Shown here piece after piece: positions 3,987-63,743 of a stretch of 64,000 nt of DNA (position 1 is its first letter; every line of letters starts with the position of its first letter). Source of the stretch: Utricularia gibba. Its lineage: Eukaryota; Streptophyta; Magnoliopsida; Lamiales; Lentibulariaceae. Where the stretch lies: NCBI GenBank assembly GCA_002189035.1, contig NEEC01000010.1, positions 1,922,001 through 1,986,000 of the forward strand, written 5' to 3'. A program made the position numbers and the translations under genes. The notes under the pieces were generated by a model. The model saw only the letters and a program-made list of their open reading frames with translations. It was not told where the DNA came from and ran no database searches.

Positions 3987-5029
3987 CTAGGGATTCTTTC
4001 TTGGTCTGCCTCGCTTCCTCTTCTCAGCAGTTCCAGCAACAGGCGGCGGTTGAGCAACCGCTGGAGCTGCGGCTGAAATAGGGGTTACATTTTGGGGTGG
4101 TGGGGTTCTAGATGGTAAAACTTCTGCCTCGGCGGGGGTGGGGCGCTCCCATAGATCGGAGGCATCCATTTTGGAAAACCACCATCTTGTCCTTTCGCAT
4201 TGCCGGTGGTAAAGCTCATCGGGAAAAATCCCCAACAGCAATAGTAAGCTTCTTTGTCAGGCACAACTGGCGGCATAGATAAAATCTCGGTGGCCGTGAA
4301 TGCCCTCTTGCAACTCTGACACCTCAAGCAACAACCTTCGTATGTTTTCTGATACTCGTAGAGATTGTAACAGTATGGGCACGTAGTCCAGAAATTCTGC
4401 ATTGATTCAGTACTAGGTGCGCTGTTTTTCTTCCGGCCTCTTGTCTCGGTGCTCCTCGCATCACCGTCGCCATCCTCACCTTGGCCTCGGGAGCTACGAC
4501 GGACAGGCAATTTCGGCTCCGAAGCATCTTTCGTTTTTTGTTTCATGCGCTGATTAAACTTCTGCTGCTGCCTTTTCGACGCTGCCAAATCTACCTTGGT
4601 GAATCGGGAGACAACCTCACTGTCGTAGGCAGCTTTCTTCGCCGGATCAGACAAAACCGCCCACGAATCGGCGACTAGATGGAAAGCGGAGTCGGAAAAG
4701 GGGAATTTATTCTTGTCAGGGTGGAGGAGGAGCGCGAGATGCCGGTACTTCTTCTTGATCAATTCGACGTCGTCTGTGCGCTGCCCGAGTTGTAATATCG
4801 CGTACCAATCGGGACGATTGTTCGAGAGCTTGTTGCTGCTGTTGTCTCCGGCGAGAAGAACCTCGGCGATGGCGAGGATCTGATCTGAGCCTTCAAGGAG
4901 AGGCTCCGTTTCCTGGGCGAGAATGGCGAAATCGCGACAGGCGGCGAAGTCTTCGTTACCGAGAAGTTTCTCGGCGATTCCGAGTAGACGCTCAGCTTCT
5001 GCTCGGCTGGTGGTGGTATGATGCTCCAT
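3987..5029 (-). CDS. J-domain (DnaJ-like) protein with AT-hook, one-base frameshift near the C-terminus
   Basis: Single-exon gene starting at 5029. An N-terminal helical region of the type found in plant AT-hook/DUF3444 J-proteins is followed by a J domain at about residues 73-140, with the HPD tripeptide at about 103-105. A Cys-rich segment (CPYC, then CLRCQSCK) and a WGFFPM motif follow. In the starting frame the protein ends at 4085 after 314 residues with an unnatural tail. In the next frame the sequence from about 4143 to 3987 continues as a Pro/Ala-rich tail ending in KRKRGRPRKNP, an AT-hook typical of this family. One extra base in the C run (G run 4134-4138 or 4140-4143 on the plus strand) would join the two. 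The likely role is a co-chaperone, possibly nuclear or chromatin-linked given the AT-hook. The family is clear; whether the frameshift is real or an assembly error is not. Confidence 0.85.
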
Positions 5030-5343
5030 TCGATTTCTGCGAATTAGGTTAAAAAAAACCGGAGGGATGTCCGAGTCCCACGGTAGTTTGATCGGACAAA
5101 AACGACGGCGCCTCGCGTTCTGTTTTTTTTTTTTTTTTTCTTATCTATTTTCTTGTTCAATGTGTCTGAATTTAAAGAAAACAAATAAAGATAAAATTTC
5201 AATTACAAATTTTGATTTTTAAAATAACGGAATAATATTCTCAAACCTCCGGATCGCGCTAGCTCCAAAATTTCCTAAAATTCGTCGCATTTCAAACCCT
5301 AGAGTTCAATGTGATGATCTGTTGTTAATCTTGCTCCTAGAAA

Positions 5344-6751: not shown

Positions 6752-6862
6752 AATTCTCCAGGAGTTTTTCTGCTAGACGTTGCTCATATACCTTCACTGA
6801 ATGTCAATGGATCCTCCGGTTGCATCTAGTGAGCGTGGTCTGCTTTCCAGCTTTGACACCCA

Positions 6863-7129
6863 TCATTTCCTAGATAGCCACTTACCTCTCAACATGCCTT
6901 TTTTCCAGAGCTGCTCGATGATGCTCAACAAAGTAGCAGTTACCATGAAACCGGTGAAGGAAATTGCAATCCCTTGCTCCTTGAGATTTCCCCCGCCCAA
7001 ATCTGGCCTAGAAACAGTCTCTCGCATGGAGCCCGACAGCATGTTTCGAAAAGGGTGTGCATAACTGTGAAGAACTCTTGGATGGGTAACATCCTCTGAA
7101 AAGGATGCGGGAAAGCTCTGTCGTGTCAT
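6863..7129 (-). CDS. Possible small membrane protein, antisense ORF (doubtful)
   Basis: An 88-codon leftward frame lies just downstream of the unrecognised split gene. It contains a plausible hydrophobic segment (residues about 55-74, GIAISFTGFMVTATLLSIIE) followed by a basic tail. The opposite strand is also open over the same interval (6801-7064), so openness alone is weak support. No start context, intron or family match supports it. Listed because the hydrophobic-then-basic order is what a single-pass membrane protein would show. Confidence 0.2.
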   Translation of the reverse strand: MTRQSFPASFSEDVTHPRVLHSYAHPFRNMLSGSMRETVSRPDLGGGNLKEQGIAISFTGFMVTATLLSIIEQLWKKGMLRGKWLSRK

Positions 7130-21379: not shown

Positions 21380-21875
21380 TATTCTCCCCATACCCATAGA
21401 TCAGGCTGTATAAACACACACTCTTTTTTCACATCAATGCAATCTCCCATTGCTGAGTTTCTCCTTGCAACCTATGTCTTGAGGAGTCCATTGAATCCTC
21501 CATTTGCCCTCCTGGTGTTGCACATGTACCTCCTCTGTGTGTTGCAGGGAGCATCCATCAGATCAATCTTGAAAAGAGACAAGAGATATTTCCCAAATTA
21601 ATAATAATTATCATAATATATATATATATATATTATAGTATTTTATATTGGCATCATTGGAGAATGCATGGAGTACGAAAATTAAGTGGGAATTATCTGA
21701 AAAAAAAAGATGAGGAAGTGGAATAAAAGGGATTTTCAGTAGTCAGATCAGCGCCTCAATCTCATCGAGGATTCCCAGGTTGTGCTGACTGGAAATGGCG
21801 GATATTTCTAAGTAAGCTTTGCGCAAGGTTTGGGCTTTTGCTGCGGATTCTCCATTTTTCTCGCCGTCGTTCTCG
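21380..21875. other. Short spacer between SABRE and PGI
   Basis: Only about 500 bases separate the SABRE stop from the PGI start on the same strand. It must hold the SABRE 3' end and the PGI promoter and leader. A (TA)n-like run lies around 21618-21634, and an AAATTAAGTGGG stretch follows. No gene is visible. Confidence 0.6.
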
Positions 21876-42752: not shown

Positions 42753-43076
42753 AAAAGAGAAGAACCACATGGGGGGTGTCGACCGCTTTCACCCCCAGCC
42801 TAGCTGTTTAAATCCAAATTTAAAGGCATTACCTTTTTATTTTAAATTCGTATAAAATTTATTACAACGACACGTGTCACCCAGACCGAATACACGTGTC
42901 GCCTCCAGAATATGAATAAAATCATTTCCGATATTTGTTTTCACGAGAGGGGGAATTAAATTGAATAAAAAGGGTTAAAGATTCAAATAAAACGGTCAAA
43001 TGACCAGGCAAAAGGAATGTGACTTGAAATCGGCATTCCGGTACTTGAAATAATAATTCAAAATCAAGGCGGAGAT

Positions 43077-43438
43077 CTAGAATATCAGGGCACCATAGGC
43101 CACCGCCACGGCGGCAGATCCAGCGACAGCGGCTGCTGCAATCTTCTTTCCGGCGGCTGCGCTAGTCGGCGCAGGAGCCGGCGCTTCCGCGATAGACGGC
43201 GAGTGAGGCGCGGGGGCGGTGGCAGGTGACAGTGGAGGGGCGGAGGGGAGGAGGATGCTGGAGGAACAGCCGTCGGGGGCGTCGCCACGACGGAGGGCGG
43301 AGGTGATGGAACCGCGGCGTGGTGCTGCGGACTCGCTGCCTTCGGAGCGGCTGCAGGAGAAACCTTGGGGGCAGCCGCCAGAGATTGGGCGAGAGCAGAT
43401 CCGGCAAACAGAGCAAATATGAGGAAGAGAACCGCCAT
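43077..43438 (-). CDS. Classical arabinogalactan protein, one-base frameshift in the middle
   Basis: Single-exon leftward gene starting at 43438. The protein begins with a signal peptide (MAVLFLIFALFAGSALAQS), then Ala/Pro/Ser-rich AGP repeats (AAAPKVSPAAAPKAASP). From about 43237-43255 the starting frame turns into a basic Leu/Arg-rich tail unlike any AGP and ends at 43085. In the neighbouring frame the same DNA reads APPLSPATAPAPHSPSIAEA, then a GPI-type hydrophobic end (IAAAAVAGSAAVAVAYGAL), stopping at 43077. Adding one C in the C run there would restore about 120 residues. A TATAAAAAGG box lies at 43510-43501, about 65 bases upstream. The product would be a heavily O-glycosylated cell-surface proteoglycan. 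The broken frame may be an assembly error. Confidence 0.85.
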
Positions 43439-43500
43439 TGCCGTCGAATCTCTGAAGCTCGAGGGACAGATGATTTTACTCCAGGGGATGGGAAAACGCT

Positions 43501-43510
43501 CCTTTTTATA
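43501..43510 (-). promoter_or_regulatory. TATA box of the AGP gene
   Basis: TATAAAAAGG on the minus strand, about 65 bases before the ATG at 43438, a normal distance for a plant core promoter with a short leader. Confidence 0.7.
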
Positions 43511-43599
43511 GAGCGGTTATATTGTTTATTAACTTTTATTCTCAAAAAAATAAAAAAAAATGGGAATTTAAAAGGCGTCTTTTATTATTTGAACCTTAT

Positions 43600-44900
43600 T
43601 TTATTATAAATATTTTATTCATTTTTGTGGGAAGTTGCTGAATTAGGAAGCTTGAGGAGCTTGTGATTATTCCTGAAAAGGAAATTATAATAATAATAGT
43701 AATCAATAAATAAGCATATTAAGCATTATTTATTACAATAATTTCACAAGGGGCAGGCCAAGAAAGCATCCTCATCGATTCCTTCGACCTAATTGCTTGA
43801 AAATCCTCTTGAACGAAGGCAGTGGAGGTCGTTCCCGCGCCTCCGATTGCGAGGGATAATGTCGAAGGCGGTTAGGCGGAGGTGGCCAGTGGTGATTATG
43901 AGGCGGTTATTGATGGATTTGCACGGTAGCTGGGATTGATCTGATGCTTTGCTTTCAGTTGCACGCTAACGACGGCATCAACACGTCACTGAAGATGACA
44001 AGGTTCCCGTGGTTTGTTTCGCAGGTGTATGCATTTCCGTTTTCCTTTTCGGTGTATGTGCTTTGTGGTGGTGAAAAGGACGAGACAATCTTCTGGTTGT
44101 GTCCTTTCATGCATCCTGGTTTGAAGGCGTAACCTGTGTCCCTTATCTTTTGCTTAGGGATTCGTCGGTTCAGTTTTATGTATGTTGAACACCGGGGGCT
44201 GTTCAAGAAATGCTGGTACGTATGCTGATATCTGTACCTATCAAAAACGGGTGGTGGCAATGGAAGTTTGAATCCTGAAAAATTATGGAACCCATCACCA
44301 AGTAGAGGTTCTATTACCTTGCTGAGACAAAGTAGTTCAAGCAAGACAAATATGAAATTTAGTTGAATTCTGAGTTCTGTCCTGCACTCTCTGTTGGTCT
44401 TTTTCTTAATCCAGGTGACATCTCGTAGTAAACGCAAACGGTGGCAGCAGGGGTTTCCATCTTCTGTCATTCTTTTACACAGTGGAGTACACTAACGCGC
44501 ATAAGAGCAAATTGGCTTGTAAGTGAGAGGGCAGACACGCATCTCACGTTCCCGTTCTTGTAAATTGCAGGGACCCATTGCAGGCGGAGAGTTTCTGTTA
44601 CGCAGATGAAAATTGCAGGGCGTACATCTTTACAGATGAATCATGTCTGGATTTCATCTTATCCAAAGGTGTCATTTGCAGAAACAATGAACTATCTTTG
44701 GCAATGTGCCAAAGAGTGAAACAATTGCAATGCTTATATTAGGGAGCACGAAGATGAAGTTTTTGGCTCATAAGTCTATCACAAACAGCAAAGGAAGGGC
44801 TTGGTTCTTGAAAAAGAAGCAGCCCAAGTTTTAACTTTTTATTCCTCAGTTGCTGAAAGACAGAAGCCTTCTTTAGTGACTGATGAATACTACTCGGGCT
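43600..44900. other. Unassigned region, possible exons of an unknown rightward gene or a non-coding RNA
   Basis: No gene can be assigned. There are exon-like blocks on the plus strand: an ATG at 43859 starting MSKAVRRRWPVVIMRRLL, a block ending FPWFVSQ before GTGTATGC at about 44023, one after an acceptor near 44415 (TSRSKRKRWQQGFPSS), and one after an acceptor at about 44570 that is open in two frames. They do not join in a consistent phase. It may be a decayed gene, a non-coding transcript, or untranslated sequence of COX6b. Confidence 0.3.
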
Positions 44901-46624
44901 CTAGAGTGGACCTGGGAACGTCCCATTTTCTCTTTGCTCATTCCACCTTTCAACCTGTTTCGAAAATAAAAAGGCATTTCTCAGTCTCGAGGAAAGAATG
45001 AAGAAGAGCAATTCCTGTTTCCTGGTCGAAGAACAATGCTTTCTAGTTTTTTTATGCAAAATTTAACTACTTGTCAATATGGAAAAGTCTGATTCTTTAA
45101 TCGGTGCAAAGAGCATACATACCCATTCACCAGGGCATAGGGAACGGTAGTACTTGGCAAACTTGTCACACTCCGGGGCTCCATCGCCCTTAGCTGCAAT
45201 ACATCTGATGACAGAATGAAGAGGTCGAGAATGATTAGACTTTAGAGACTTTCCTATTAGTCAGCAGGATTGCATTATAATATATTGCCAGGGGGAAGAG
45301 AACATGCTGAACCATGGAAATGAAGGATGAGCATCAAATGAAGTACAGGTAGGCTGACTTACCGGTGATATTCAATATATCTAGTGAAGCAATGCCTTGT
45401 CTGGTTGGTAGTTGGGAAACGGAAGTCAGCAGGTGCTGTCTCTAGCTGCAAGGCAAAGAAGAGTTAAGGTGCTGGGCCAGGAACATCACCTAGGCGTGGT
45501 ATTGGTATGGGCTTAGTAAAACCTTGATCTCAGCAGGCACTTCCGATTCTTGGTCATTTGTGTTCTCAGATTCCTCAACTTCACTGCTTTCTTCAACAGG
45601 GCTTGGTGCGATATCATCAGCCTTAGCCTCATCAGGAGGACTTGATTCCTCGCTTTCTTCGGCAGCAACACCAGTTGTTTTACCCTCTACTTCTGAAGCA
45701 GGAGCTTGAGTCCCGGAAACATCACCTACAGTTTCCTCAACAGTTACTGCAGCACTTTCCTCAAGAGGTGCATCAGTTGTTGGTTTTTCAACAGTTACTG
45801 CAGCGCTTTCCTCAAGAGGTGCATCGATTGTTGGTTTAACCTCAGGCTCTTCAACAGCTACTGGAGCGCTTTCCTCAAGAGGTGCATCAATTGTTGGTTT
45901 AACCTCAGACTGTTCAACACTTTGTGCAGCCGCTATGTGCTTTGGTGCTTCATCCTGTAGTAAATATTCCTACACTCCCAATGACTCAACAATAAGACCA
46001 ATTATAATGTTACATCCAAATCCACCAGAAAAAACACAAAGCAGGCAACAGAACAAACATCCCCGAACTCCAGCTCCAACGATCAGCAGAACAGGACATG
46101 AGAATCTGGACATATTTTAACTACATTTCCAACAAGGTTAGAATACTAGGAATTAACCACCCAATCTCCACTGATTGCTTGTTTTGATACAGTCAACCCC
46201 ACGGATTTAAAACCGTTTGTTTTTTGTCACACAAAATTGATGTCAGGCTGTGTTCTTATTATAGGGAAACAAGCAAGAAAAACAAGGATGAACTGCATCT
46301 CATAAACAACCCAGGAATTGGCATTCAGCGCATAATACATACTATTCAACCCAATTCAAGGGTAAAAATCTGTAACAGTATCGAATTCGGACCAGTCATG
46401 ATCGATGAAGAACACACAAAAATAATCAAAACCAAACATTGAATCCAGGATTTTCCGCAGGAGCAGCACAATCGCAGCTATCAACTAACTTTTTAATGCA
46501 AATTCAGTTAACAGCCCCAGACGACCAATACAACGAACCAATAGAATGCATATAATCTCTTGAAAACCACGATCCCGATTACCTCAGCTAGAGATTGGAC
46601 CTTTGCGATGTCTACCCCTGCCAT
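44901..46624 (-). CDS. COX6B: Cytochrome c oxidase subunit 6b with long acidic N-terminal extension
   Basis: Five exons: 46624-46583, 45954-45523, 45445-45363, 45204-45123 and 44954-44901, giving 230 residues. The conserved core is at the C-terminus: LETAPADFRFPTTNQTRHC, then FTRYIEYHRCIAAKGDGAPE, CDKFAKYYRSLCPGEW and VERWNEQRENGTFPGPL. It carries the four cysteines of the twin CX9C/CX10C fold that is imported into the mitochondrial intermembrane space. The ~150 residues before it are acidic and repetitive, as in the large COX6b-1 of Arabidopsis. The product is a nuclear-encoded subunit of respiratory complex IV. Phases are consistent and there is no damage. Confidence 0.95.
45738..45912 (-). 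repeat. Tandem repeats of 51-60 bases in the COX6b acidic extension
   Basis: Three in-frame units encode near-identical blocks around PTIDAPLEESA(A/P)V(T/A)VE. Two units include EPEVK and one is shorter. The shared DNA core is TTTCCTCAAGAGGTGCATC on the plus strand, seen three times, about 51 and 60 bases apart. Confidence 0.85.
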
Positions 46625-47150
46625 TGGAGAACGCTGGAATCCGATGAGTACACCTACGAAATCAACCACGAGCTGAGGTCGGTACAGAACAACAGTCCCG
46701 AGTACCGCATGGTGAGACTAAGATACCGTGCTTCAGGCCCAAAACGATTGATACAGGTAATAAAGCCCAAAATAAAACCCTTGGTGTTTCGAATCCCAAC
46801 AAAAAAAGAAAAAAAAAAGAAAAAGCGAACAGGGTTGGATAACAATGAAATTGAATATTCCAAACGAGAAATATTGTATATAATAAATCGAAAACTAATA
46901 TTGCTATTTAAATAGAAGAATTTAAATAATTTTCAGATTTTTATTTAATAAAGAAATATAAAATTGTAATAAATTAATTAAAAATGGATAACATAGTAAA
47001 ATCACATTGACACGGAAAAGATTGAACTTGGCAAGAAGCTCATTGCAGTGTTTTCATTTTGCTTCTAACATCATCAATGTCTGAAAGTGAAGTATTCTTT
47101 GGAACATAAGTGAAAGTGGGGAAGCTAAGAACTGGAGCTTGGAAGCTTGT
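46625..47150. other. Intergenic region, 14-3-3 to COX6b
   Basis: About 530 AT-rich bases between the 14-3-3 stop and the COX6b start on the same strand. It holds the COX6b promoter. A run of A with scattered G near 46801-46825 and a very AT-rich stretch (46860-46990) are the only features seen. Confidence 0.5.
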
Positions 47151-48356
47151 TCAATGTTGGTCTTCCTCCTCAGGCTTCGCAGCAGCTTCTTTCCCTTCGT
47201 CGCCTCCGTTTTCCTGCTTCATAAAACAAGAATGAGCATTGCGGAAGAATGGTATGTCGTAGAAAGCAGTTCCATTACCTGCATATCTGAGGTCCATAGG
47301 GTGAGATTGTCACGAAGGAGCTGCATGATCAGGGTGGTGTCTTTATAGGACTCCTCTCCCAGAGAATCCAGTTCTGAGATTGCTTCATCAAATGCCTTGG
47401 AAAATGCAGGCCGCATTTCAAAATCCACTTCTTCATAGAGCAGGAAAGTAAGAGGAAGGATCAAGTGGGTACCTGTTTGGCGAGATTACAGGCTCGATCT
47501 GGAGAGTTCAGGATCTCGTAGTAGAAAACAGAGAAGTTCAATGCCAAACCAAGACGGATTGGGTGCGTTGGAGCAAGCTCTGCGTTAGCAATATCCTGGA
47601 TTTCCAGAGGAGTCAAATTGATATCTTTCAACTTCACCATGAAATTTGCTTAGATTCTACTACGCTAAACAAGCCTGGAGTACATGGGGCTGACAAGAAG
47701 GAACAGATCATGATAACGGAAATGAAAATGGGAAATCATCAAACCCAGGAGAGGTTATCGCTCTGAGGCATGAATTCAGCAAATATAGCCGAAATTCATG
47801 AAGATCTACGGATGGAAACGCTTGATACGCAATCAATGTCATTTTAGATTAACAGGATTTGGAGAAGAGGGGAAACCTGTGCGGATTGGTAGGCGTTGAG
47901 CGTGCTCTCAGCCGATTCCTTTCTCTCGGCGCCTGTTTTGAACTCAGCCAAGTACCGGTGATAATCGCCCTTCATTTTCAGATAAAAAACTTTAGAATCG
48001 CTTGCGGAAGCGGAGGGAATCAGCCGCGAATCGAGAAGTTTGAGGATGCCATCGCAGATCCCGCAGAGCTCTGTCTCGATCTTCGATCTGTATCCCTTAA
48101 TCGCGGAAACGTGATCCTCGTTCCCCCGCGACTCCTCCTTCTGCTCAATCGACGATATAATCCGCCACGACGCCCGCCGCGCCCCGATTACATTCTTGTA
48201 CGCGACGGAGAGTAGGTTCCTCTCGTCCACAGAGAGCTCCTCATTCTCCGGCAACGCCATCGACACTTTCTCCATGAACTCCACCATCTCCTCGTACCGC
48301 TCCGCCTGCTCGGCCAGCTTGGCCATATACACGTTCTCCTCACGCGCCTCCGCCAT
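47151..48356 (-). CDS. 14-3-3 protein
   Basis: Four exons: 48356-47877, 47595-47473, 47395-47279 and 47213-47151, giving 260 residues. The start [20 protein letters not shown] is the usual one; an upstream in-frame Met would add an unrelated leader. The phosphopeptide-binding groove residues lie in conserved motifs: [49 protein letters not shown] and [12 protein letters not shown]. The C-terminal tail is acidic and Gly-rich as usual. The product binds phosphorylated client proteins such as H+-ATPase, nitrate reductase and signalling factors in cytosol and nucleus. The isoform cannot be decided from this sequence. The frame is intact. Confidence 0.97.
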
Positions 48357-48858
48357 GGATGGATTTGTCGGTGTTCTCAGTGAAGACAAAGGAAATTTGT
48401 GGCTCCCGAGAAAACTATATATCGGAAAAATGGGAAGCACTGAGGCGAACGAGGAGATTCCTTGGCCGCTACTGTGCAACGACTGCGGCGGACGCGGCGG
48501 CTACAATCACCTTTGACGGTTGGCCATTACTAATTTTAAACAGATCCTATTTTTAGGAATATTCCGGACATTCAATTGTCATTAATCCAGTGATAAAATC
48601 AGCAAATAAACAAATCATTTAAATTTAGTGTAATATTAAGAAAATTACAATATAATACTCATAATATGTCTACTTTTTTATAATATTCATAAAAAACTCA
48701 TTTTGAAATAAATATATTCGTAAATCTTTTATTAAACAAATGCTTTATTCGTGAACCGTACGCCCCAGACATCTATGGCGTCCTCAAGCAATATACATAC
48801 ACAGCAAACTCCATAGTACGGATTACGCTCAAGCTTGTAAACGGCGGCAACACGAGAA

Positions 48859-51165
48859 CTAATAGCTGCTCCGAGAATTCATCCTGCGTTTCCTGAGGCG
48901 CTCGGCGATGATGAAAGCAAGCTCCAGAGACTGGGAAGCATTGAGCCTGGGATCGCAGTGGGTGTGGTATCTGGAGCTCAGGTCGTCGAATGTCACCGTT
49001 CTGGATCCGCCGATGCACTCGGTTACATTTTGGCCGGTCATCTCCAAGTGCACACCGCCGGGGTAGCTCCCTTCTTGCTCGTGCACGTCGAAGAAGGCTC
49101 TCACTTCGGCCTGTCATGAGTTGAAATGGCAAGGTTCTTATCAGCAAGAAATAACTAGTCTTTGGGTAGTTTCTTATCAGCAATGGATTTGCAGTAATAA
49201 CAGTAGTAAGATGTAAGGACGCCATAGCGTTGGATATGGATTTTCCTTCACCTAACAGAGAAGTTTCTAAGCAGCCATCTATGAGCAAGATGCATCAACA
49301 ACCTCAAGAACCGTCAATGTTGACAATTCATTTTTTGTTTTAATTGATTTCAACATCTGAAACTGCTACTGTAGTATCCAAATTACTCAGCTGATGTAAA
49401 TCTCTATTGATTCCAAAAGGAAGTACTCAAATAAAACATGTGCGCACAGTTCAAGTATAGCTAGAACCCTGAAACTAATGGAAAAAGGTGAAAGTTGAGA
49501 GAGCTTACTCTTATGGCGTCGAAAGGGCGAGTCTTCAGACCGCAGGGTGCTTTGATGGTGTTTCCGTGCATGGGATCGGAGACCCATGTAACGATATGAC
49601 CGGCCCGACGCACTGCCCTGATCAAATGAGGAAGCTTCACTCTCATGTTCTCTGCTCCCATTCTTGTAATTATGGTTATTCTTCCTGGTTTGTTTTGGGG
49701 ATTCAAAATCTGTATCAGCTTCACTAGCTCATTGGGATCCATCTTGTCGCTCACCTGAAAACATGGATTACGGCATTGAGCATTCAAGAAACCAAGCCTC
49801 ATAACAGCAAAAACATATCATAAGTCGGATGGTAATACCTTAATTCCCAGAGGATTTGCGATTCCTCTTAGGAACTCCACATGGGCGCCATCCAATTGGC
49901 GGGTTCGTTCTCCTACCCACAAGAAATGGGCGGAGCAATCGTAGAAGAAACCAGATGTTGAATCAAGCCGGGTGAGAGACTGCTCGTAAGGCAAGAGCAA
50001 ACACTCATGGGATGTCCAAAACTCAGTTGTCTTCATCACAGGATGATCCATTGTCAACCCAGCAGCCTGCATAAATCCTAAGGCCTCATCCACACGGCTA
50101 GCAAGTTCCCGGTAGCTGCATCAAATATTTCAAACAATTTCACAACCATGAACACGGTGGCAGCCATGATCAATATATGAGGACATACCGATCTCCCTGC
50201 TCGCTGTGCTCCGTGAAATCCAAGTTCCATTGAGTAACCCTTTGCATCGCAGCGTAACCTCCAGTTGCAAAGGCTCTCAGCAGATTCAAAGTTGCAGCAG
50301 ATTGACAATAAGCCCTGATCATCCTCTGTGGATCTGGGATTCTAGATTTTTCATCAAATGCATCTCCGTTAATATTATCCCCTCTATAAATCGGCAACTT
50401 AATACCATTCCTTTCCTCAAAAAGACCAGATCTAGGCTTCGCAAATTGACCAGCCATTCTTCCCACCTGTTTCCAGATAATGCAACAAATCAATCAATAC
50501 TGCACTCGTTGCTTAGCATTCACAAGAGAAAGGGAATAGGGGAGCAATATCAGAATCAGGGGAAATCCCATAGCCCCTTTTGCATCAGTTTCACGAAAAA
50601 CAGAGACGGAAAAGGATGGAAAATTAGATACCTTTATGACGGGAAGTTGGCCACCGAACATCAAGACAGCGCCCATCTGAAGGAGAACTCTGAAAGTATC
50701 CCTAATGTTATTAGCATTGAACTCCTTAAAGCTCTCAGCACAATCCCCTCCTTGCAAAAGGAAAGCATTCCCCATAGCAGCCTCCGCCAGCCTTTCCTCC
50801 AAATTCCTAGCCTCACCCGCAAACACAATCGGCGGAAAAGCATCAAGAGTCCTCAAAACCGACTCCAGCTCATCCTTGTTCGGATACTCCGGCAACTGCA
50901 AAGCCGTCTTCGACTTCCAACTATCCAAAGCCCATTTCTTCCTAACAACCGCCGTCTCAGCCGCTGACACAGCGGGTGAAGCGGCGGCGGGAACAATGGG
51001 TTTCTTGGGGCTCGAAGCATCGGCGGAATGGATCGCAGAAATGGGTTTCACGGTGGCCGATTTGACGGAGAAAACATGCTGACGAACCGATGATACAGAA
51101 GAAGAGACATCGGAAATGCAGGTGGGCTTATTGGGGAGAAGGGAGTTGTTGGCGGCGAGAGCCAT
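48859..51165 (-). CDS. Plastid DAHP synthase (class II, shikimate pathway entry)
   Basis: Catalyses phosphoenolpyruvate + erythrose 4-phosphate to 3-deoxy-D-arabino-heptulosonate 7-phosphate, the first step to aromatic amino acids. Five exons: 51165-50632, 50466-50189, 50115-49839, 49754-49509 and 49110-48859, giving 528 residues. The first ~65 residues are a Ser/Ala-rich transit peptide. Class II motifs include [97 protein letters not shown] and [20 protein letters not shown]. The length matches plant enzymes. The start is the first ATG at 51165. All phases agree. Confidence 0.97.
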
Positions 51166-52434
51166 GTGCAAGAACAGCTAGTAAACAACCGCGGTTCAAC
51201 TCAGACACCAAAAATTCTCCTTGAAGCGGCAGACGAGAAACGGGAAGCGTATTTATGAACAGAGAAGGAGGTTGGGGTGGTTGGTGGGTGAAGCGCAAAA
51301 CCTTAGGGAAGCTCAATGGCGTTATTGGTGGCGCCATTGCCACGACCCCCAAGTCCCAACAACCCAATTTTTCTGATTTTCAAAGGGCAAAATCGTCATT
51401 AACACAAAACGCCCGTTGCATTTTTTAATTGAATATTCATTTTAGTAGCATATTTTCATTTATTCAATATAAAATATTTGTTGAAATAATTTACATAAAC
51501 ATATAATTTAAAAAACATAAATAATCAAATATAAAATATTACTCAATAGATGAAAAGCTGTATAGTTATTTTGGTATATAATATTCTCAAAAATCTTTTC
51601 AGAATAAAAGCGATGATATTAATTTTTATTTAACATATGAGGTCATGTTTTATTATAAATATTAACATAAAACATTTTTTTCTATTGTCGCATACGAAAC
51701 ACGAGAAATGGGCCTGAGCCCGAGCAACATCATCAACTCAATAGCGCTTAGCTCCAAAACCACCTCGTGCTGAATTGAATTAAGGCACGTGCCGGCAAGA
51801 CATGGGCAGCGTGCCCTATATTTCAAAATTCTAATTACTATTTATTTGCTTTTTCTTCTTTCCAATAAATGCAGCGTGCCCTAAATTTATTATTTATTTC
51901 CAGTATTACATAAATGGGTTTTTAATTTTCATACCAATTTTTTTCTATGAAAATAGGGCTTTAATTTCATTAGAAAATTTGGGAAAAATTAATGTGATTT
52001 TATTTGAAAAAAAAATAAATAGTCTTCAATAATTGGTCGGCATGCATAGGATTCCGAGGCACGCAAATATCGAAGTTCTGCGCGGCCAACTGGAGCCCAG
52101 TCATCTTTCCAGCCTGTTGTCCCTATCAGCCTACTTTTGTAAACTACTGAAATACCCCTAAAAGAGGATTTTGAAGTAGGGCGTCTAGGGGTAATTCAGG
52201 TATTACACGCGGCACCTCTGTATTGGGAAGCACGCGATTAGGAAGGAAACTGCGGGAATATGGACAGCTGTCTCTGCTGTGAAGTCCGATCTCATCCATT
52301 ACGCGTCCTAGCGAGTCGTATTTATATAGCCACAGGCTGGGAGGGTTTGTATCTCTGAGTTTCTCTGTTGGGTTTTGTGTAGTGAGAAGGAGAGGAGAGT
52401 TCTGTAGTTTAAGAGGGTTTTTGGTTCATCAACA
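51166..52434. promoter_or_regulatory. Divergent intergenic region, DAHP synthase to EXORDIUM-like a
   Basis: About 1.27 kb between starts pointing away from each other. A perfect palindrome GGCACGTGCC (G-box core) lies at 51784-51793. A TATTTATATAG element at 52319-52329, about 105 bases before the EXORDIUM-like ATG, is a good TATA box. The middle part (51420-51670) is very AT-rich. No gene is visible. Confidence 0.55.
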
Positions 52435-53358
52435 ATGGCGAGTACTGCTTTTTGGGTAATGTGGTTGTGCGTTTTAGCTCTTTTCCAGGTGGGCTTTGGT
52501 TCTGGTGAAGATCAGCAAAATTTGCTTCTCCGGTACCACGATGGGGCGCTCCTCCGGGGCAGAATCGCGGTTAATCTGATCTGGTACGGGAAGTTTAAAG
52601 CCGCCCAGCGGGCGATTGTCTCGGATTTCGTCAATTCTGTGTCGTCCGCAGCTGTGGGGTCGCCGACGGTGGGAGATTGGTGGAAGGCCGTCGAGAAGTA
52701 TTATGATATCGCGGGCTCTAAGAAACTGGCACCGCTGTCGCTTTACCTGGGGAAGCAGGTTTTGGTTGAGGATTACTCGCTTGGGAAATCTCTATCGGAG
52801 AAGCAGATTGTTCAGTTGGCGTCGATGGGTGACGATAAAAACGCCGTGAACGTGGTTCTCACGGCGGCGGACGTCGCGGTGGCCGGATTCTGCGTGAATC
52901 GCTGCGGCACCCACGGCTCCAAAAGCGCGATGATGAAGGGGAAGAAGAATTACAAAATGGCCTACATTTGGGTGGGCAATTCCGAGACCCAGTGCCCTGG
53001 CTACTGCGCCTGGCCGTTTCATCAGCCCGTCTACGGCCCCCAGAATCCGCCTCTCGTCGCCCCCAACAACGACGTCGGATTAGACGGGATGGTAATGAAT
53101 TTAGCCTCCCTTCTCGCCGGAACTGCAACAAATCCATTTGGGAATGGGTTTTATCAGGGTCCGGCGACCGCGCCCCTGGAAGCCGCCACCGCCTGCCCCG
53201 GTATCTACGCGAAAGGGGCGTACCCTGGCTACGCCGGCGACCTTCTAGTAGACCCTACTACCGGCGCAAGCTACAACGCCAACGGCGCTAACGGCCGCAA
53301 GTATCTGCTTCCGGCAATCTACGATCCCTCCACGTCAACATGCTCCACTCTCGTTTGA
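52435..53358 (+). CDS. EXORDIUM-like protein, tandem copy a (intact)
   Basis: Single exon of 307 residues, the usual form of this family (phosphate-induced-1 domain). An N-terminal signal peptide (about residues 1-22) is followed by [86 protein letters not shown] and [20 protein letters not shown], ending in CSTLV. EXORDIUM proteins are secreted to the apoplast and link brassinosteroid or carbon status to cell expansion; the biochemical activity is not known. A second, similar gene lies 1.05 kb downstream in the same orientation. Confidence 0.96.
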
Positions 53359-54410
53359 TTTTGAATTTTGTATAGTTTTCAGCTTTTGCATATGCACGAT
53401 TCATTTAATTTATAAAAAAAAACATCTATTCAATTTTTTCAAAAATTCAATTTTATGTTTCATATCCGGTCCGGGTCCTGCTCCATCGACCCGGTAGCCG
53501 GCCCCACAAATTTTACCAATAGTAGGTCTGGACTCTGGACCTGTTACACAACCCTTCTTTATCCGATAAAAGTAAACGCTATTAATTTAATTTGTTACAA
53601 TAAATAAAATAATTGAAATTAGATGCCATTATTATTTTTGGAATAAAAAAATTAATGGAACGCGATGTGGCGATTTTATTACAAGGCTTACTATTTAAAT
53701 ATTGTAATAGCCAACTGACACCTACAACCCGAGGGCGAGATTTCAAAGCCGGTGGTTTGTTAGGCAAGCCTAACCAACATCCTATCCAGCCTTTATCCAT
53801 TTTTTTATATTATTCTTTTTTTAATCGCCAAAAAATGGACCATTTCTCGATTTATACGTGTCACCGTGTGGGGCCCATATCATTGCACCGTTTTCCGAAT
53901 TTGGTAAAATTATAAATGTAATAAAAAATAATAAAATGGGTATATTTATCAATTTTATCTCGCATAATATGTTTTTATTTAAATATGGGTATTAAATAAA
54001 ATTTGTAATTTTTATTGTATGGATTTAAATAGATTAATAATTAATTTCTGTTAACATAATAAATTAGAATTTGGGTAATTGGGGATTGGGAATTGGGATA
54101 GGTGTGTTTTAGGGTTTATTGGTGTGAATTGATTTCTTTAATTTATTAAAAAGTGGAATAATGGAGTGAAGGACACAGCTCATCGATTAGGTTTTTGGTC
54201 AAAGGGGAATTAAAGAAATCAAACACGCTGACAGCTGCAGTGCACTGAACCGGTAATGGCGGAAATTGGGATAGGGACGCGCCATGCAAACCAACGGGAA
54301 GCCCGCAAGGGGGAAAGGGAAGCTTCATTTCGGGTTTCGTTTTCTTCTCTGTATAAAGACCTTAACATCGCCTTCCCTCCCAAACCAACAAGCGTCTCCC
54401 GCTATCAACT
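53359..54410. other. Spacer between the two EXORDIUM-like copies
   Basis: About 1 kb, AT-rich, with no gene. A TATAAAG box lies at about 54352-54358, some 55 bases before the start of copy b. I see no obvious remnant of a third copy. Confidence 0.55.
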
Positions 54411-55333
54411 ATGGCTCGAGTTCTTCTTCTTCTTCTGTTGTTGCCTGCCTTCTTCCATCTTTCTCTCGCTGCAACTCTCGCCCCTGAGGGTTCGTCCATG
54501 CCCTGAAATACCATGGGGGTTCTCTTCTTAAAGGGAGCATTTCGGTTAATTTGATCTGGTATGGGGAATTCAGCGCCGCCCAGAAAGGGGTGATCGCGGA
54601 TTTCGTTACGTCTATCTCCGATTCGTCGTCGCCGGCGCCATCGGTGTCCGCCTGGTGGAAATTTGTGGAGAAGTATTACCTGTTGGCGAACCCGAAGAAG
54701 CCCAATTCGGTGTCTCTGCTTTTGGGTAAACAAATTGTTGTCGACGGCAACAGCCTCGGGAAATCTCTGTCTGAGAAGCAGATCGTTCAGTTGGCGTCCA
54801 TGGGCGAGGATAGGAACGCCGTGAATGTTGTTCTCACGGCAGCGGACGTCACCGTTCCAGGATTCTGCGTTAACCGGTGCGGTACCCACGGATCCAAAAG
54901 CGCGATGATGAAGGGTAAGAAGAATCACAAATTCGTGTACATTTGGGTGGGGAATTCCGAGACCCAGTGCCCTGGCTACTGCGCATGGCCGTTTCATCAG
55001 CCCATTTACGGTCCTCAGAACCCGCCGCTGGTCGCCCCTAACAACGACGTCGGATTGGATGGAATGGTCATAAATCTGGCCTCTCTTCTCGCCGGAGCTG
55101 CCACGAATCCGTTTGGCAACGCATTTTATCAAGGTCCGCCCACCGCACCCTTGGAGGCGGCCACCGCCTGTACCGGTATCTACGGGAAAGGGGCGTACCC
55201 TGGTTACCCCGGCGACCTTCCGGTCGACCCCACCACCAAAGCAAGCTATAACGCCCACGGTGCCGCTGGCCGGAAGTTTTTGTTACCGGCGATATACGAT
55301 CCATCGACCTCCACGTGCTCCACCATCGTTTGA
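54411..55333 (+). CDS. EXORDIUM-like protein, tandem copy b, one-base frameshift after the signal peptide
   Basis: The ATG at 54411 opens a clear signal peptide ([20 protein letters not shown]), but this frame stops at a TGA at 54504. The rest of the protein continues in another frame from about 54505 ([21 protein letters not shown]) to the TGA at 55331. The body is complete and very similar to copy a, with [29 protein letters not shown] and [13 protein letters not shown]. The shift must lie between 54484 and 54506 because the downstream frame is closed before that. One extra base, for example in the CCC at 54501-54503, would restore about 307 residues. Given the preserved body, an assembly error or a very young lesion is likely. 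Confidence 0.88.
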
Positions 55334-55917
55334 CCCACCCATATTTGACTTTTTTTTCTGTTGAAAAGAAAAATAGTGATTTTTTTTTTTTTTGTGAAGT
55401 AGTGTTTGTTGATGAAAAGTAAACAAATATTAATTGTAAGGTGTTTTTTGAACTGTTGAATTAATGCGTAATTGGGCCTTGAACTTGATGGGCCTATCTG
55501 TATTGGGCCAACCAGGCGCAAACGGATCCAATTCATGTTTAAACATTTGTTCTCGAACAAAAAAGAAGCTTCTAAAATTTTTTGTGGCGCCACGTGGCGA
55601 TGAATCGAAGCGCGCCTTAGATATTAAATGGTCTTGGATGCTTCTAAACTTTCCAGAAGGTTCCAGGGATGCCTGGCTGCAAGTGGCTGATGATTCTAGT
55701 GGCCACGAAACTGCCACGTGTTTATGTGGGCCATCACGTATTCGACGTGGCAGCATGGCTAGTCCAGTATTGATACGATACACCTCTTTTTATTGGTTAG
55801 GGCACTTTAAGCGTTCGACTTTCGTTCCCGTCGGGTCATACATTTGCACCTCGAATTTGAGATCCCGAAGCTGCCATTTTGGTGGATTGGGTTCCAATTT
55901 TGGGGTTTTTGTGTCAA
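55334..55917 (+). promoter_or_regulatory. Promoter of the RCC1-type gene with heat-shock element and G-boxes
   Basis: A perfect three-unit heat-shock element TTCCAGAAGGTTC lies at 55651-55663. Two CACGTG G-boxes lie at 55591-55596 (inside GGCGCCACGTGGCG) and 55715-55720, and further ACGTG motifs lie near 55736-55752. All are within 330 bases of the RCC1-type ATG at 55918. Upstream, 55360-55400 is the T-rich 3' end of EXORDIUM-like b. Function is inferred from motif matches only. Confidence 0.55.
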
Positions 55918-58411
55918 ATGAATGGGAATAGAAGTGAACAAGATCTGAGAATGGAGGAAAAATTGGTGTTCATGTGGGGTTATTTGCCCGGAGCTTTGCC
56001 ACAGAGAGCGCCTATTTTGTCGCCGACAGTCGTGCCGCCGCCGCAAGGTGAAGGATTGTGGAAGGATGTTTGTGGCGGTGGCTGTGGTTTTTCTGTAGCT
56101 CTTTCAGGTGGTTTTGAGTTATTCAGCAATTTAGTTTTCTTCGACTTGTATTTTCCATTCTATTACATTCGCCCGCTTTATTTTTTTATCACATTTAAAC
56201 AACTTCCTTTGATTCCCAGACTCCGGAAAACTAATTACATGGGGTTCAGCGGATGACTTGGGTCAAAGTTATGTAGCATCTGGGAAACATGGGGTAATAG
56301 AATGTACGATGTTTTTCTTGTTGTTGAAGCGAGACCCTCGATTTCGTTTGTCATAACTAGCTGTTTCACACTGATATTGTTAAGGAAATGCCAGAGCCTT
56401 TTCCACTTCCCTCTGGGGTTGTAATCGTGAATGCTGATGCCGGATGGGCGCATTGCGTTGCCTCAACAGGTAGTTTTTGAGTTACTCGTTAGAGTCAGCG
56501 GATTCTGAAAATTGACTTTTGGAGTACTAACGGTTGAATTCAGTGGGTGGAGATGTTTACACTTGGGGCTGGAACGAATGCATTCCTTCTGGAAAAGTTC
56601 TTGAGGACTCTAGCGTATCAACCACAGATAAGGAGGAGGAAAGGCTAGACAAACAAGGTTCCATGTCGAACGAGCAGGGTATTGCTGCTTTTTCCTGGAC
56701 AAAAATTACGTACAGACTCTCTTGTTCATTTCACATGTCTAATTTGTTGTAGAGTGACTCAGTTTCAGTGAGTTCTCATGCGCAAGGAAGATCAACTGGT
56801 GGTTCTGTGTCAGCCAGCGATAGTAAAGGGTCTGATGAGGTTTCAAAACGAAGACGTCTATTGAATGCTAAACAGGCTGCTGAAACCGCATTCTCAGGGG
56901 ATGACACGCTTTCAGCAGTGCCGTGCTTGGTAGCACTCAACCCTAGTGTAAGGATTCTTTCTGTAGCTGCTGGTGGTCGGCACACATTAGTATTATCAGG
57001 TAGCTCATTATATTGTTCTAATTTATCTTTTTTGAATGTGTTGCGTTATCTAGGAGTACCATAATTGCTCATCTCCATTTTCTGTTTATCGTCAAAGTTA
57101 CAGATGTGGGACAGGTTTGGGGTTGGGGCCATGGAGGTGAGGGGCAGCTTGGTATGGGTTCGCGGGTCAGAATGGTGACCTCACCACATCCCATACCCTG
57201 CATTGATTCATCCTTTAACTCTGGAAATAATCTATCGGAGGGTCAGGCATCAAGGGTTCCTGGTAGTTATGTAAAAGCAATTGCTTGTGGAGGGAGACAT
57301 AGCGCAGTAATTACAGGTTGGTGAACTAGAGGTTATGCTTGTGAATATACCTGTGTATGAAAGTTATCTCATGCATATTTGCTTGCTTCAATAGATGCAG
57401 GTGCACTATTGACTTTTGGTTGGGGGTTGTATGGGCAGGTGAGTTTCTTCCTTACCTGGTTCTATTGTTGCCATGTTTTTTTCTGTACTTTGGAATTGCT
57501 TGCAAAAACAAAAGGTAGAAAGCATTTGTAGCATACGCTCCCATAAATATAACTATATAATGCAATGATGCTACCCTGATCATGAGAAGGAAGTACTTTT
57601 GTCACAAGTAAATGAATCCATTTCTCGATCCGTCAGTTTGGCTATCTGCTATGTATTTGTTATAATTGGTGACTCTAAAAGTTTGTATCTTGATATTGCT
57701 GTAGTGCGGTCAAGGAAGTACAGACGACGAATTAAGTCCCATTTGTGTTTCTTCCCTACTCGGCATCAGGATAGATGGAGTAGCAGCAGGACTTTGGCAC
57801 ACTGTATCCATTTCAGCGGATGGCGATGTCTATGCATTTGGGGGAAATCAGTTTGGCCAGCTAGGAACAGGGGGTGATCTTGCAGAGGTACACTGCATGT
57901 TTACTTCTCTCAAGTATCTATGACCTCCCTCCCATTCCTCCTAGTACTATTGACGATGGGCTGTTTACATCTCGCTGGTAGACTCTGCCCCGGCTCCTCG
58001 AAGCTCCAAGTCTCGAGAATACAGTTGCCAAAGCAGTATCGTGCGGAGCTCGGCACAGCGCCGTCGTTACAGGTTCGTTGTTTACCTCCCTGAGCCTGTG
58101 CTGCTCGGTCATTCATACATTTCCTGGCTTGCTGCCATGTTGCTTATCCAAGTTTCATCATTTTTTATTGAAGATGATGGGCAGTTAGTATGCTGGGGAT
58201 GGAACAAATACGGACAGGTACGATGTCTCAACTCATGCAGTTTACTCAATCCTGCGAGCACCCATTAACAAATGAGCCATCCAAACAGCTCGGTCTGGGC
58301 GACGTGATCGATCGCAACACGCCATGCCATGTCCCCCTCGAGGGGTGTGTAGCGAAGAAGGTGGCCTGTGGCTGGTGGCACACGCTCCTGCTCGCCGAGC
58401 CTCGACCGTGA
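55918..58411 (+). CDS. RCC1-repeat family protein
   Basis: Eleven exons: 55918-56107, 56220-56293, 56385-56469, 56544-56678, 56763-56999, 57104-57316, 57395-57438, 57705-57887, 57982-58072, 58174-58217 and 58289-58411, giving 472 residues; phases match throughout. The repeats of a seven-bladed RCC1 propeller are clear: CGGGCGFSVALSDSGKLITW, DAGWAHCVAST, AAGGRHTLVLSD, ACGGRHSAVIT, AAGLWHTVSISADGDVYAFG, SCGARHSAVVTD and ACGWWHTLLL, each followed by a W/F-G-x-x-GQ blade. A charged, Ser-rich insert (about residues 120-190) with KRRRLLNAKQ breaks blades two and three. It resembles a plant RCC1 protein of similar size in Arabidopsis. Possible roles are GTPase regulation or scaffolding; not known. 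Confidence 0.93.
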
Positions 58412-61094
58412 GGAACGCTTTTAACCTCCGGCCGCCGTGCCCGGAGTTTGGACGAAGCAGGGAACAGTTTTGTTTGCTAGGAGTTTCGAGCACCAGACAG
58501 GAGTGTTGGAAGTGAAGAACCACACGCTCTGCCTTCAGACAGACGTAGCCTCTCATCGGACAACTAAACCTTTGCAGCCCTGTAATGTTATGTATGTAGC
58601 AGCCACCGCCATTCTCCTCTCTGTAACTTCCGCTGCTTCTTCCATAGAAACTAGAAACCAGGTTTCACGTCAGGTGTACTATTTATATCTGTACTTGAAA
58701 CTCCATCAGAAAATGAACTGTACTTGGAGTGTACTATTTCAAGTCCAAAAACCCCCACTTATATTCTATGAATTAATTTATAGAAAACAATATTACATAT
58801 TTTACAGGGTCGTTTTATCAATGAATTAAATTTAAACGACAAAACAAACATTTATTAATGTGCTACTTATCAAGATGAGTCATGGGCAGTTAGATTAAAC
58901 ACATCAAAATATAAAATTTTATAATAATATTATAATGTCATACCAATCCAGAAACAACAGTTACCAAACGACGACGCATGTATCCCATTAATAACTTTGT
59001 CAGGTAGCAACTTGTTTCACAAGGTCCACTAAACAATAATATTAACTATTAGAAAAATAAGATCATCATTCACATTTCAATGTCAAAAAACAAAATTTTT
59101 TGTCCTAACCTAAAGTGGCAAAACAAAAAATCACAATATAAGTTTCAAAACATTGATATATACTAAAATTGCATAAAAAAAATATCCATCTTAAAAAAAA
59201 TAAAATAGATTAATAATATGAAAGATTTGTTCTGTTTTATAAATTTATTAATGTAATTTTTTTTAAATTCTTATAGATTTTTATTTTTTATTTGTAGTAA
59301 AATTAATAATTCCAGTTTTGAGATTAAATTCAAAAAAATATTGAATTTCCTTAATATCTATTTTAGTTTATTAAATAATAAATTAAATTAAAAATGATAT
59401 TATATATACATATATTAAATTTTATAATAATTTAATATATTAAATTATATAACATAATTTTATGCAAAGTTTTCTAATATCAAAATTGATTATATTCAAA
59501 TTATCTTAAAACTAATTATATCATACGAAACCATATATTAAAACAAAGAACAGCTCATTGCATCAATCAATTAGTATACAACTAACTAAGTAAAATAATC
59601 AATTCTTTAATAAAATATAAGATTTAGAGTATTGAGAAGTCATTTTGGATGTGCATTTCAATGATTGAGGGTTAGGGGTGGAATCGAGTGCAGGAGGTGC
59701 ATGTGAACCAGGACCGGGGGTCAGAGTACGCGGTGCCCAAGTCTCTTTTCTCAAGCTTGTCGCTTCTGGGAGACTTCTCCCAGCCTTTGTCAACCTGTCA
59801 CACCTAGATCTCGACCTTGATAACGATTAAATAATTTCAATAATTCAAAAAAATGTCCAATTTATTCAATTGGATGATGAATTTTTTAAAATTGTTTATT
59901 AAAAAAAGAATGGAATTTTTGCATAGTGTGGGGGCGGACAAGAAGGTTTCATTCACATTTGATGAAGTGTGTGTGGGGGAAGGCAAAACAGTTCATTTCT
60001 TGAACCATCAATTCGATTCATGATCTGCGTAATGGGATGTAAAGAGTTGTGATTGTCGGCTGCTGCTATGAAAATGGACGTCTGGTTTATGGGGGTCGGA
60101 TTCGGATTGGCAATCGGCGTTGCGGGGTGCGTGGTTGTGTGTGTATAGGCGCGTGTTGTGTGTATGTATATAATGGACGGCAACTTGCGCTTGTCTTTCT
60201 CGATTTCAGCGTTTTCACCCTAAATGGTACAATGGGTGGCGATCTTGGCATTTTTTTAATCTAGGAAAAGAATCCGAAGCTGCGGTAATGAGGGAAATCT
60301 TGTGAGGGGGGGTGTTGAATGAGTGGGTCCTGGGAATTTATGGGAATGCGCTGCTGTGTAAGCTGGGCCTCAGTAAGAATCTTTCTCTTCCGTCGGTGGA
60401 ATTGAAGATTTCGCAGCTTTTTAAGGTACTGCTTCAGCTTGTGTTTCAGTGAGTTCGCTGTTTTTTTCTGGGTGTTTTCTCAGTTTGCTGCGTTGGATCA
60501 AAATGGGTGCTATTTGGTAGAAGCTTCCCACTTATCCATTCCAGGGGATCGTTTGATCTTCAATTTATGGAGTTATGATTTGAGTGGCAGTCCCTGGCTT
60601 ATCTGTTGTTCCTTAGTTTTAAGGGAACTGCTGATGTTCATGCTCGTGAGTGAGTTTTTGTTTGTTATCTATGCCTGTCTTTTTTTTTCGTTTGTTCCCC
60701 TGCAATCTCCTTTTAGATGAAAGGACAGTGCTTCCTGTAAAGTTCTTCCTTTGGGTTTCAGTTTGCTTTTTCAGAGTCATGTGACTAGTTTCACAGATTA
60801 CTTTAATTATATCGTCGGTGCCCTGCAGAGTTGCACTGCTGATACTAGATTCATCGAAACTGGTGTTTAAATAAGAGAATCTAAAGGAAATTCATTGTTT
60901 CTCAATTGGAAAAGCCTGTTATGTGAAAAGCCTTTGGTGGGATCCGAGCAGATCCAACCGATGGTGCTGATCATTGTTGCATTGGTGCTGAAAAGCCTTA
61001 TCTGTGAATGATATGACTTTCCTTTTTTTGCGCATCGGGTTCTGTTCTGTATGCTTCCGCATGGTTCATGCTTCGATATTTCTCAGGTAATAAA
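58412..61094. other. Long intergenic region, RCC1-type to QUA2-type gene
   Basis: About 2.7 kb. From 58740 to 59640 it is extremely AT-rich. A compact GC-richer island lies at about 59650-59800, with one leftward open frame that has no family match. From about 59930 on, GC content rises and the promoter and 5' leader of the next gene probably begin; an untranslated exon followed by an acceptor at 61086 is likely. No gene is supported. Confidence 0.5.
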
Positions 61095-63743
61095 ATGTCC
61101 AGACCTCTTCTTCGCAATATAACCAGTGGAAGAGGAAGCTTTTCACAAGGTAGCAATGGGTACTGGCCAGATTCTCAGAAGAAAGAAGAAGATGTAGATC
61201 GAAACAGCAAAAAAGGTGCTGATGATGTGCATTCGTTCTCAATGGATTCTGCTTTAGCTATTCTTACACTGACAGTATCTCTAAAACACAGGTGGTATAG
61301 AGAATGGTATTGTATCTGAAACCTTCAGTCCTGTGCTGATAAGGAGTCGACACAAATCTATTGTTTCTTTCCTCAGATATAGTTCCATAGTTATTGTTGT
61401 TCTTGCTCTTACTGGTTCCTTGTTGTGGACGCTTTCCATAACCTCAGTCTCGAGTCATAAACCTTTCCGGGGTTACAGGCGACTTCAGGAGCAGTTGGTA
61501 TCAGAGCTTTATGAAATAGGGGAGCTTTCTCTTGGTTTGTCAAGGTCAAAAGAATTGGAATTCTGTTCAGAGGAATTTGAAAACCATGTCCCCTGCTTCA
61601 ACGTTTCTGAAAATCTTGCCCTCGGATTTTCTGATGGTAAGGAGTTCACTCGCCATTGTGAAAACATCATGAAGCAAAATTGCTTGCTTCTACCCCTGCC
61701 AGTTACAGAACCCCCCTACGCTGGCCAACCGGAAAAGATGTCATATGGTTGGCAAATGTTAGAATTACTGCACAGGAAGTTCTTTCGTCTGGAAGTTTAA
61801 CTAAAAGGTTCTTTTTCATCCATTGTCTCTATTGTTGGCTAGCGGGCTTGACTCATTGTTTCTTCTGATTGTTCTTCTTTTATGTGTCAATGCAGAATGA
61901 TGATGTTGGATGAAGATCAGGTTTCTTTTCGTTCTATGTCAAACGCTTTTGATGTCGAGGATTACTCCCATCAAATCGCTGAAATAATGGGGCTAAGAAA
62001 TGTGTCCTACTTAACACAAGCAGGAGTACGTGGATTACTCCCATCAAGTTGAAGCTTCTTTTGATAATGTGTGCTTCTATGAGGCAGCTTCATCTTCTGC
62101 GTTTTATCTCAGGTTAGAACCATTCTGGACATCGAATGTGGTTATGGCAGTTTTGGAGCTCATCTCTATTCGCATGAAGTATTAACAATGTGCTTAGCAA
62201 ACTACGAGTCCTCTGGGAGCCAAGTGCAGCTAACTCTCGAAAGAGGCCTTCCTGCCATGATTGGTTCCTTTACAACTAAGCAGTTGCCATTCCCTTCTCT
62301 TTCATTTGATCTCATACATTGCGCAAGATGCCATGTTGAGTGGGAGAAAAAAGGTATACTTGATTCTTCTTTGATGATAGAATGGAGCAATCTTCTTTGA
62401 TTTGTGATTCTTCGGATGTGGTTCAGAGGGGATACATTTGGTTGAAGCTGATCGGCTGCTGCGCCCTGGTGGGTATTTCGTGTGGACTGATCCACTTACA
62501 AATTCTCAGCGCTCCCCTAGAAAAAAAGATGGCCGGAAAAAATGGAACGCCGTGCGGTTGCTTACAGAGAATCTCTGCTGGGAGATGTTGCCTCAACAAG
62601 ATGAAACTGTGATCTGGAGAAAGACAAGCAAGAAGAGTTGCTATGCTGCCAGGTAAGGCAACTAGTGCCATCAGATGTTCTCCTCCTCGGCCGTATGTAG
62701 TGACAGTTTGTATGGTATCAATGGGGGCGATCTTTCTTTGTAGGAAAACTGCCTCGCCGGTGCTGTGCAGCAAGGACCGTGATGTTGAAACTCCGTACTA
62801 CAGAAATCTCCAGCCCTGCATCGGAGGATTCGCTAGCCGCCGCTGGGTCCCCATTGAGCATCGCAGAAGGTGGCCGGCGCAGGCTGAGCTCAACTCCACT
62901 GAACTTGGACTGCACGGTAATGCTTTCATTGCTCGTACAAGATGGAGGGAAAAGTAGCTTCGTTGTAATGGAGTTCCCTTCTTCACAGGCCTGCCATCTG
63001 AAGAACTTGCTCTGGATGCCGGCTTCTGGCAAAACGCTGTCACCAACTATTGGTCTCTGCTGTCGCCCCTTATCTTTTCCGACCACCCCAAACGACCTGG
63101 GGAAGAAGACCCTTCACCACCGTACAACATGATGAGAAATGTCATGGATATGAATGCTCGTTTCGGCGGACTCAATCACGCCTTGCTGCAAACTGGGAAA
63201 TCTGTATGGGTCATGAACGTCGTTCCTACAAAAGGGACCAACACTTTACCACTCATCCTTGACAGGGGATTCTTGGGAGTACTTCATGACTGGTGAGTTT
63301 TCCATCTCCTTCCACACTGCGCACTCTTTCGTGGCAAAACAGTCCAATTTCGCAGCCGTGATTCGCAGGTGCGAGGCGTTTCCGACGTACCCGAGAACAT
63401 ACGACCTGGTTCACGCACAGGGGCTACTCTCTCTCGAGTTTTCCGACAAACCAAGATGCCAGATGATGGATTTGTTTGCTGAGATAGACCGGATGCTTCG
63501 CCCCGAGGTTCATATCCCTCCTGAACTTGCATCTTTTATACATTCAGATGCGTTAACAGGCATGGCTGATGGCTTCAAATCCAGGGATGGGTGATCCTGA
63601 GGGACACCATTCGCTTGATCGAGCTGGCGAGGTCCCTGGCGACGCACTTCAAGTGGGAGACGCGCATCGTTGAGATCGAAAGCAGCAGCGACGAGCGGCT
63701 CCTCATCTGCCAGAAGCCCTTCCTGAAGCAGCAACCGAGTTGA
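61095..63743 (+). CDS. QUA2/QUL-type putative Golgi methyltransferase, one-base frameshift in exon 2
   Basis: Nine coding exons: 61095-61291, 61377-61807, 61896-62025, 62113-62353, 62427-62652, 62744-62916, 62989-63292, 63369-63507 and 63585-63743. Type II Golgi protein: cytosolic start, one membrane segment (SIVIVVLALTGSLLWTLSI), then a lumenal DUF248 domain. Motifs include VPCFNVSENLALGFSDG, TPLRWPTGKDVIWLANVRIT, the SAM-binding region ILDIECGYGSFGAHL, QVQLTLERGLPAMIGSF, ADRLLRPGGYFVWTDP, YWSLLSPLIFSDHPKRPGEE, DPSPPYNMMRNVMDMNARFG and FPTYPRTYDLVHAQGLLSLE. The family is needed for pectin (homogalacturonan) methylesterification and cell adhesion. Exon 2 shifts frame at the CCCC of 61693-61696: the starting frame would stop at 61800, while the family sequence continues in the next frame. 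One extra C gives 666 residues. All other junctions fit. Confidence 0.92.
61693..61696 (+). other. Frameshift site in the QUA2-type gene
   Basis: Before this C run the frame reads KQNCLLLP; after it the conserved sequence YRTPLRWPTGKDVIW is one base out. Adding one C to the run joins both into the expected family motif. Confidence 0.85.

Follow-up and report, generated by a model that had tools for sequence, protein, structure and literature searches.

Are the four genes that lose their reading frame within a single stretch of the Utricularia gibba genome recent pseudogenes, or have they been written incorrectly in the assembly? The window analysed here, i.e., the whole stretch of 64,000 nucleotides (C304:1922001-1986000), contains a J-protein, an AGP, an EXORDIUM-like and a QUA2-like gene in each of which three-frame translation revealed a single frame switch in the direction of a lost base. 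Up to a C run, each protein is read in one frame, and beyond it in another, which is reached by supposing that one base was lost. A preliminary description of this DNA had claimed that each of the four genes needs one additional base at or beside a C/G run and that none needs a deletion. The translations agree with both statements, with four losses, zero gains and C runs of three to five bases at all four sites. The genes, their breaks and an intact paralogue are as follows.

3988 to 5049, minus strand: J-protein gene (DnaJ domain, zinc ribbon), no intron, intact apart from one break
4134 to 4143, minus strand: break in the J-protein gene at CCCC A CCCCC, apparently one base short, site GCGCCCCACCCCCGCC
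43078 to 43438, minus strand: classical AGP (arabinogalactan protein) gene, split between two frames, with a signal peptide and a GPI-signal-like C-terminus
43237 to 43248, minus strand: break in the AGP gene at CCCC TCCG CCCC, one base apparently missing, site CTCCCCTCCGCCCCTCC
52432 to 53358, plus strand: EXORDIUM-like a, intact tandem paralogue that served as control
54411 to 55333, plus strand: EXORDIUM-like b gene, Phi_1 domain intact (389 bits)
54501 to 54503, plus strand: break in EXORDIUM-like b at a CCC run, apparently one base short, directly 5' of a false TGA (54504-54506)
61285 to 63743, plus strand: QUA2-like methyltransferase gene (Methyltransf_29), other exons clean, splice sites plausible
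61693 to 61696, plus strand: break in the QUA2-like gene at a CCCC run, apparently one base short, frame uninterrupted here in paralogues, site CTACCCCTGCC

In the QUA2-like gene, the join at 61693-61696 reads ...HCENIMKQNCLLLP and then ASYRTPLRWPTGKDVIWLANVRITAQEVLSSGSLTKR. A paralogue at C451:1926357-1926866 (71% identity) has one open frame across residues 6-175 of the read-through query, which confirms the read-through frame, and two further paralogues also span the join. The remaining exons, followed by eye, displayed plausible splice sites and zero further shifts. In EXORDIUM-like b, the run at 54501-54503 lies within ATGCCCTGA; one base added there, after the signal-peptide part, brings back a motif present in EXORDIUM-like a, and this paralogue and other EXORDIUM genes align to EXORDIUM-like b starting at the residue after the join. 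The J-protein site holds two runs (4140-4143 and 4134-4138), and its join reads ...WMPPIYGSAPPPP and then AEAEVLPSRTPPP..., the second frame running to a stop after KRKRGRPRKNP. A paralogue match to this tail was sought in the genome and none was found, and the tail therefore rests on the reading itself and on its composition, with the end KRKRGRPRKNP. The AGP site likewise holds two runs (43245-43248 and 43237-43240), and the gene reads as a signal peptide, a Pro/Ala-rich part and, past 43237-43248, SPATAPAPHSPSIAEAPAPAPTSAAAGKKIAAAAVAGSAAVAVAYGALIF; support for this join and tail comes from the composition and the GPI-signal-like end. On short segments, codon-position GC (GC3) gave too weak a signal to back the frames.

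The ten other main genes of the window had been described as clean, and a partial check upheld this for the genes that could be matched. The reading frames of SABRE follow Pfam Hobbit profile positions in order from 466 onward, and the frames of EXORDIUM-like a, 14-3-3, DAHP synthase and the plastocyanin-like gene are unbroken over their matched parts.

Recent, real decay of the four genes would be expected given the repeated genome duplication and gene loss of this lineage, and the loss of the QUA2-like and EXORDIUM-like genes might be tolerated because both have paralogues. Natural one-base deletions also outnumber insertions (PMC10731980). Decay would, however, add stops, gains and larger indels. 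Pseudogenes are recognized by more than one disabling lesion or by relaxed constraint, and each of the four genes carries a single lesion, flanked on both sides by intact domains and splice sites. We thus consider it quite improbable that the four genes are decaying. The uniform sign of the breaks is nevertheless weak evidence for an artefact when the four window cases are taken by themselves, as four losses out of four have a chance probability of 0.06 at a ratio of 1:1 and of about 0.2-0.3 under natural deletion bias. For this reason, the rest of the assembly was tested, and it is the genome-wide tests that bear the main load of the inference.

The assembly tested comprises 100,091,633 bases in 516 contigs. 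The sign test covered mostly intronless families (Exo70, BAHD, HSP70, KCS and GRAS), and a frameshift was scored where adjacent matches lay in different frames and in register with the profile. Match pairs were hand-picked from the tables, with KCS and GRAS limited to loci with closely adjacent matches, and breaks in the profile tables were taken modulo 3 unless resolved in sequence. Among offsets of at most 2 bases, a shift of -1 was observed 19 times and of +1 not once, with three cases of -2 and two of +2, while all near breaks in the five families amounted to 31 of the loss type vs 5 of the gain type. Both +2 cases are a single HSP70 gene present in two contigs, and one of the -2 cases (a GRAS gene on C244, L075) consists of two separate one-base losses once resolved in sequence. 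The probability that 19 of 19 one-base breaks are losses is 2e-6 at 1:1, 4e-3 at 3:1 and 2e-5 at 62:47, the last being the ratio of deletions to insertions of 1-28 bases in pooled Arabidopsis lines of one resequencing study (PMC10731980). For the subtilases, which were searched last and scored from match tables only, nothing but losses had been predicted beforehand. A shift of -1 was observed once, in a weak match, and one of +2 once, while +1 did not occur, an outcome that agrees with the prediction but carries very little weight. Contig C81, a possible further replicate for C451, was dropped, the subtilase copies differing by 5 bases in length.

Loci of the EXORDIUM, KCS and GRAS families were also compared with intact paralogues by frameshift-aware protein-to-DNA alignment. 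Over about 100 kb of coding sequence, in which a few loci enter twice, this gave 14 losses and 1 gain. A break was counted if the support on each side reached 19 or more and the identity exceeded 0.5, a threshold chosen after the list had been seen. The losses are located in L028, L037, L040, L042, L044, L045, L061, L067, L068, L075 (two), L076, L077 and L078, and the single well-supported gain is at residue 518 of L044, a KCS gene that also carries a loss at GGG. Poorly supported or low-identity breaks were left uncounted (L030, L031, L033, L035, L069, L070, L073 and L079). The tally of the sign of coding indels that the preliminary description had put forward as a check thus came out on the side of losses by both routes (19 to 0 and 14 to 1). 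The claim that independent mutations would not give the uniform pattern is supported by the genome-wide sign and context tests, but the four cases on which it had been founded were insufficient.

Sequence context points in the same direction. Twelve of the 14 losses lie at a C/G run of 3-6 bases, two (L037 and one in L075) are without any run of three, and an A/T run alone accounts for none of them. The coding DNA aligned here holds 2187 C/G and 2607 A/T runs of at least three bases (54% A/T), and the chance of 12 C/G cases out of 12 under the C/G share of runs is about 8e-5. Slippage in really decaying genes would also strike the commoner A/T runs. Decaying pseudogenes have disrupted frames in common with the genes studied here, which however display one sign, one context, no other lesions and otherwise conserved sequences. 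In the GRAS family, four loci (L075-L078) all lose frame at an RPGGPP-like motif, where the observed runs are GGGG, CCCCC, CCCCCC and CCCC, while the remaining alignable GRAS genes are in frame at this motif, with C/G runs that are shorter in most of them. Breakage of related genes at long runs is a prediction of run-length-dependent error. Programmed ribosomal frameshifting at C runs would account for the slippery look of these sites and nothing more, whereas there is no common heptamer and no fixed position, the intact paralogues keep frame without a shift, and the affected genes are unrelated and spread genome-wide; we regard it as scarcely credible.

One GRAS gene offers a direct comparison, as the same 4.1 kb locus was assembled twice, on contigs C316 (L061) and C412 (L062). 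One substitution and 10 indels separate the two copies, and every indel is a loss in the small contig C316, seven of them of a single base (T, A, A, T, G, G and C) and three of 2-7 bases, some of which, in the AT-rich flank, could be allelic. Within L061, a change from GGGG to GGG leaves an open frame of 412 amino acids, against 615 in L062, and L061 is therefore one false pseudogene seen directly. The A/T losses in its noncoding DNA confine the C/G-only rule to coding sequence. The earlier statement that C/G runs, and not A/T runs, are affected is accordingly upheld for coding DNA, with no loss at an A/T run alone, but not for the noncoding flank of this locus.

Not every break needs to share the same origin. 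One HSP70 gene is present on two contigs (C304:2235823-2237462 and C241:16598-18237) and is interrupted in an identical manner on each, at C304:2236266 and C241:17791; this break could be systematic or real and is a candidate for a real frameshift. Identical match scores were observed for the contig pairs C187/C4 and C241/C304, which, like C316 and C412, are probably redundant. On C413:4947230-4997561, KCS (fatty acid elongase) genes form a tandem array, and some of its members, interrupted by stops, could be real pseudogenes next to intact ones. A mixture, in which most breaks are errors but at least one of the four window breaks is real, together with others such as the shared HSP70 break, would accommodate the break common to two contigs, the robust gain in L044 and the stop-bearing KCS copies. 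On the other hand, no feature separates any of the four sites from the error class, and we hold such a mixture to be unlikely, albeit the least unlikely of the alternatives.

Residual errors of the same kind are documented for long-read assemblies. According to a review, the U. gibba assembly was produced with HGAP from 88x PacBio data, with a contig N50 of 3.4 Mb (PMC5793159). In an HGAP3 assembly polished with Quiver, a further 205 indels had to be corrected with Illumina reads, almost all of them at homopolymers of G or C (PMC4832174), and an Enterococcus faecium consensus still contained 561 single-base homopolymer deletions after three rounds of Quiver (PMC4888979), i.e., one per 5.7 kb in a genome of about 3.2 Mb. 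As in these PacBio CLR assemblies (PMC4832174, PMC4888979), the breaks here are single-base losses at homopolymers that would result in false frameshifts. The preference for G or C runs (PMC4832174) is likewise found here in coding DNA, and the rate of about 1 loss per 7 kb of coding DNA (14 in 100 kb; four in an estimated 20 kb within the window) is similar to that of PMC4888979. Unlike in those reports, the genome is that of a plant and the errors were deduced without short reads. The errors also differ from those of an AT-rich Plasmodium assembly, which were located in very long homopolymers and TA repeats (PMC5964635).

We propose that PacBio CLR assembly and polishing would write C or G runs of 3-7 bases one base short. 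Each lost base would shift the frame of an otherwise intact gene and lead to a false stop downstream, and the same process would act throughout the genome, with roughly one frameshift in every 5-7 kb of coding DNA. The observed bias towards losses, their C/G-run context in coding DNA and the two copies of one gene set apart by such a loss, together with the published HGAP/Quiver errors, bear out the preliminary attribution of the breaks to homopolymer contraction in the consensus, which we consider the very probable explanation of this class of frameshifts. We infer that the four sites are errors introduced at the consensus or polishing step, and for any single one of them, an error is the likely reading. 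A real mutator that deletes bases specifically at C/G runs and breaks a noticeable share of the genes of this plant, with the assembly being right, would likewise yield one-way run losses and the 1:10 ratio of substitutions to indels between L061 and L062. Conserved families would not, however, survive about 1 break per 7 kb of coding DNA, the doubly assembled gene is broken only in the small contig, and the pattern fits documented Quiver errors, which makes such a mutator very improbable.

Homopolymer contraction is a known artefact and not new biology, and its recognition is useful for annotation. At one false frameshift in about every 5-7 kb of coding DNA, if this rate holds, several thousand would be present in the gene set of this assembly, and claims of gene loss, truncation or pseudogenization based on it should be checked against reads or transcripts. 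Published gene-loss claims for U. gibba are not made wrong by the artefact, as the truncation of DCL3 was verified by its authors with RNA-seq and 5' RACE (PMC8333044). The sign test needs no reads and is applicable to any assembly.

For the interval 43000-62000 of the window, which includes three of the four sites, a second assembled copy was sought and none was found, the best matches being paralogues of 69-88%. The part from 43037 to 58486 is repeated in reverse order on C451:6204076-6222005 with 68-88% identity, and the two stretches likely represent a duplicated (homeologous) block.
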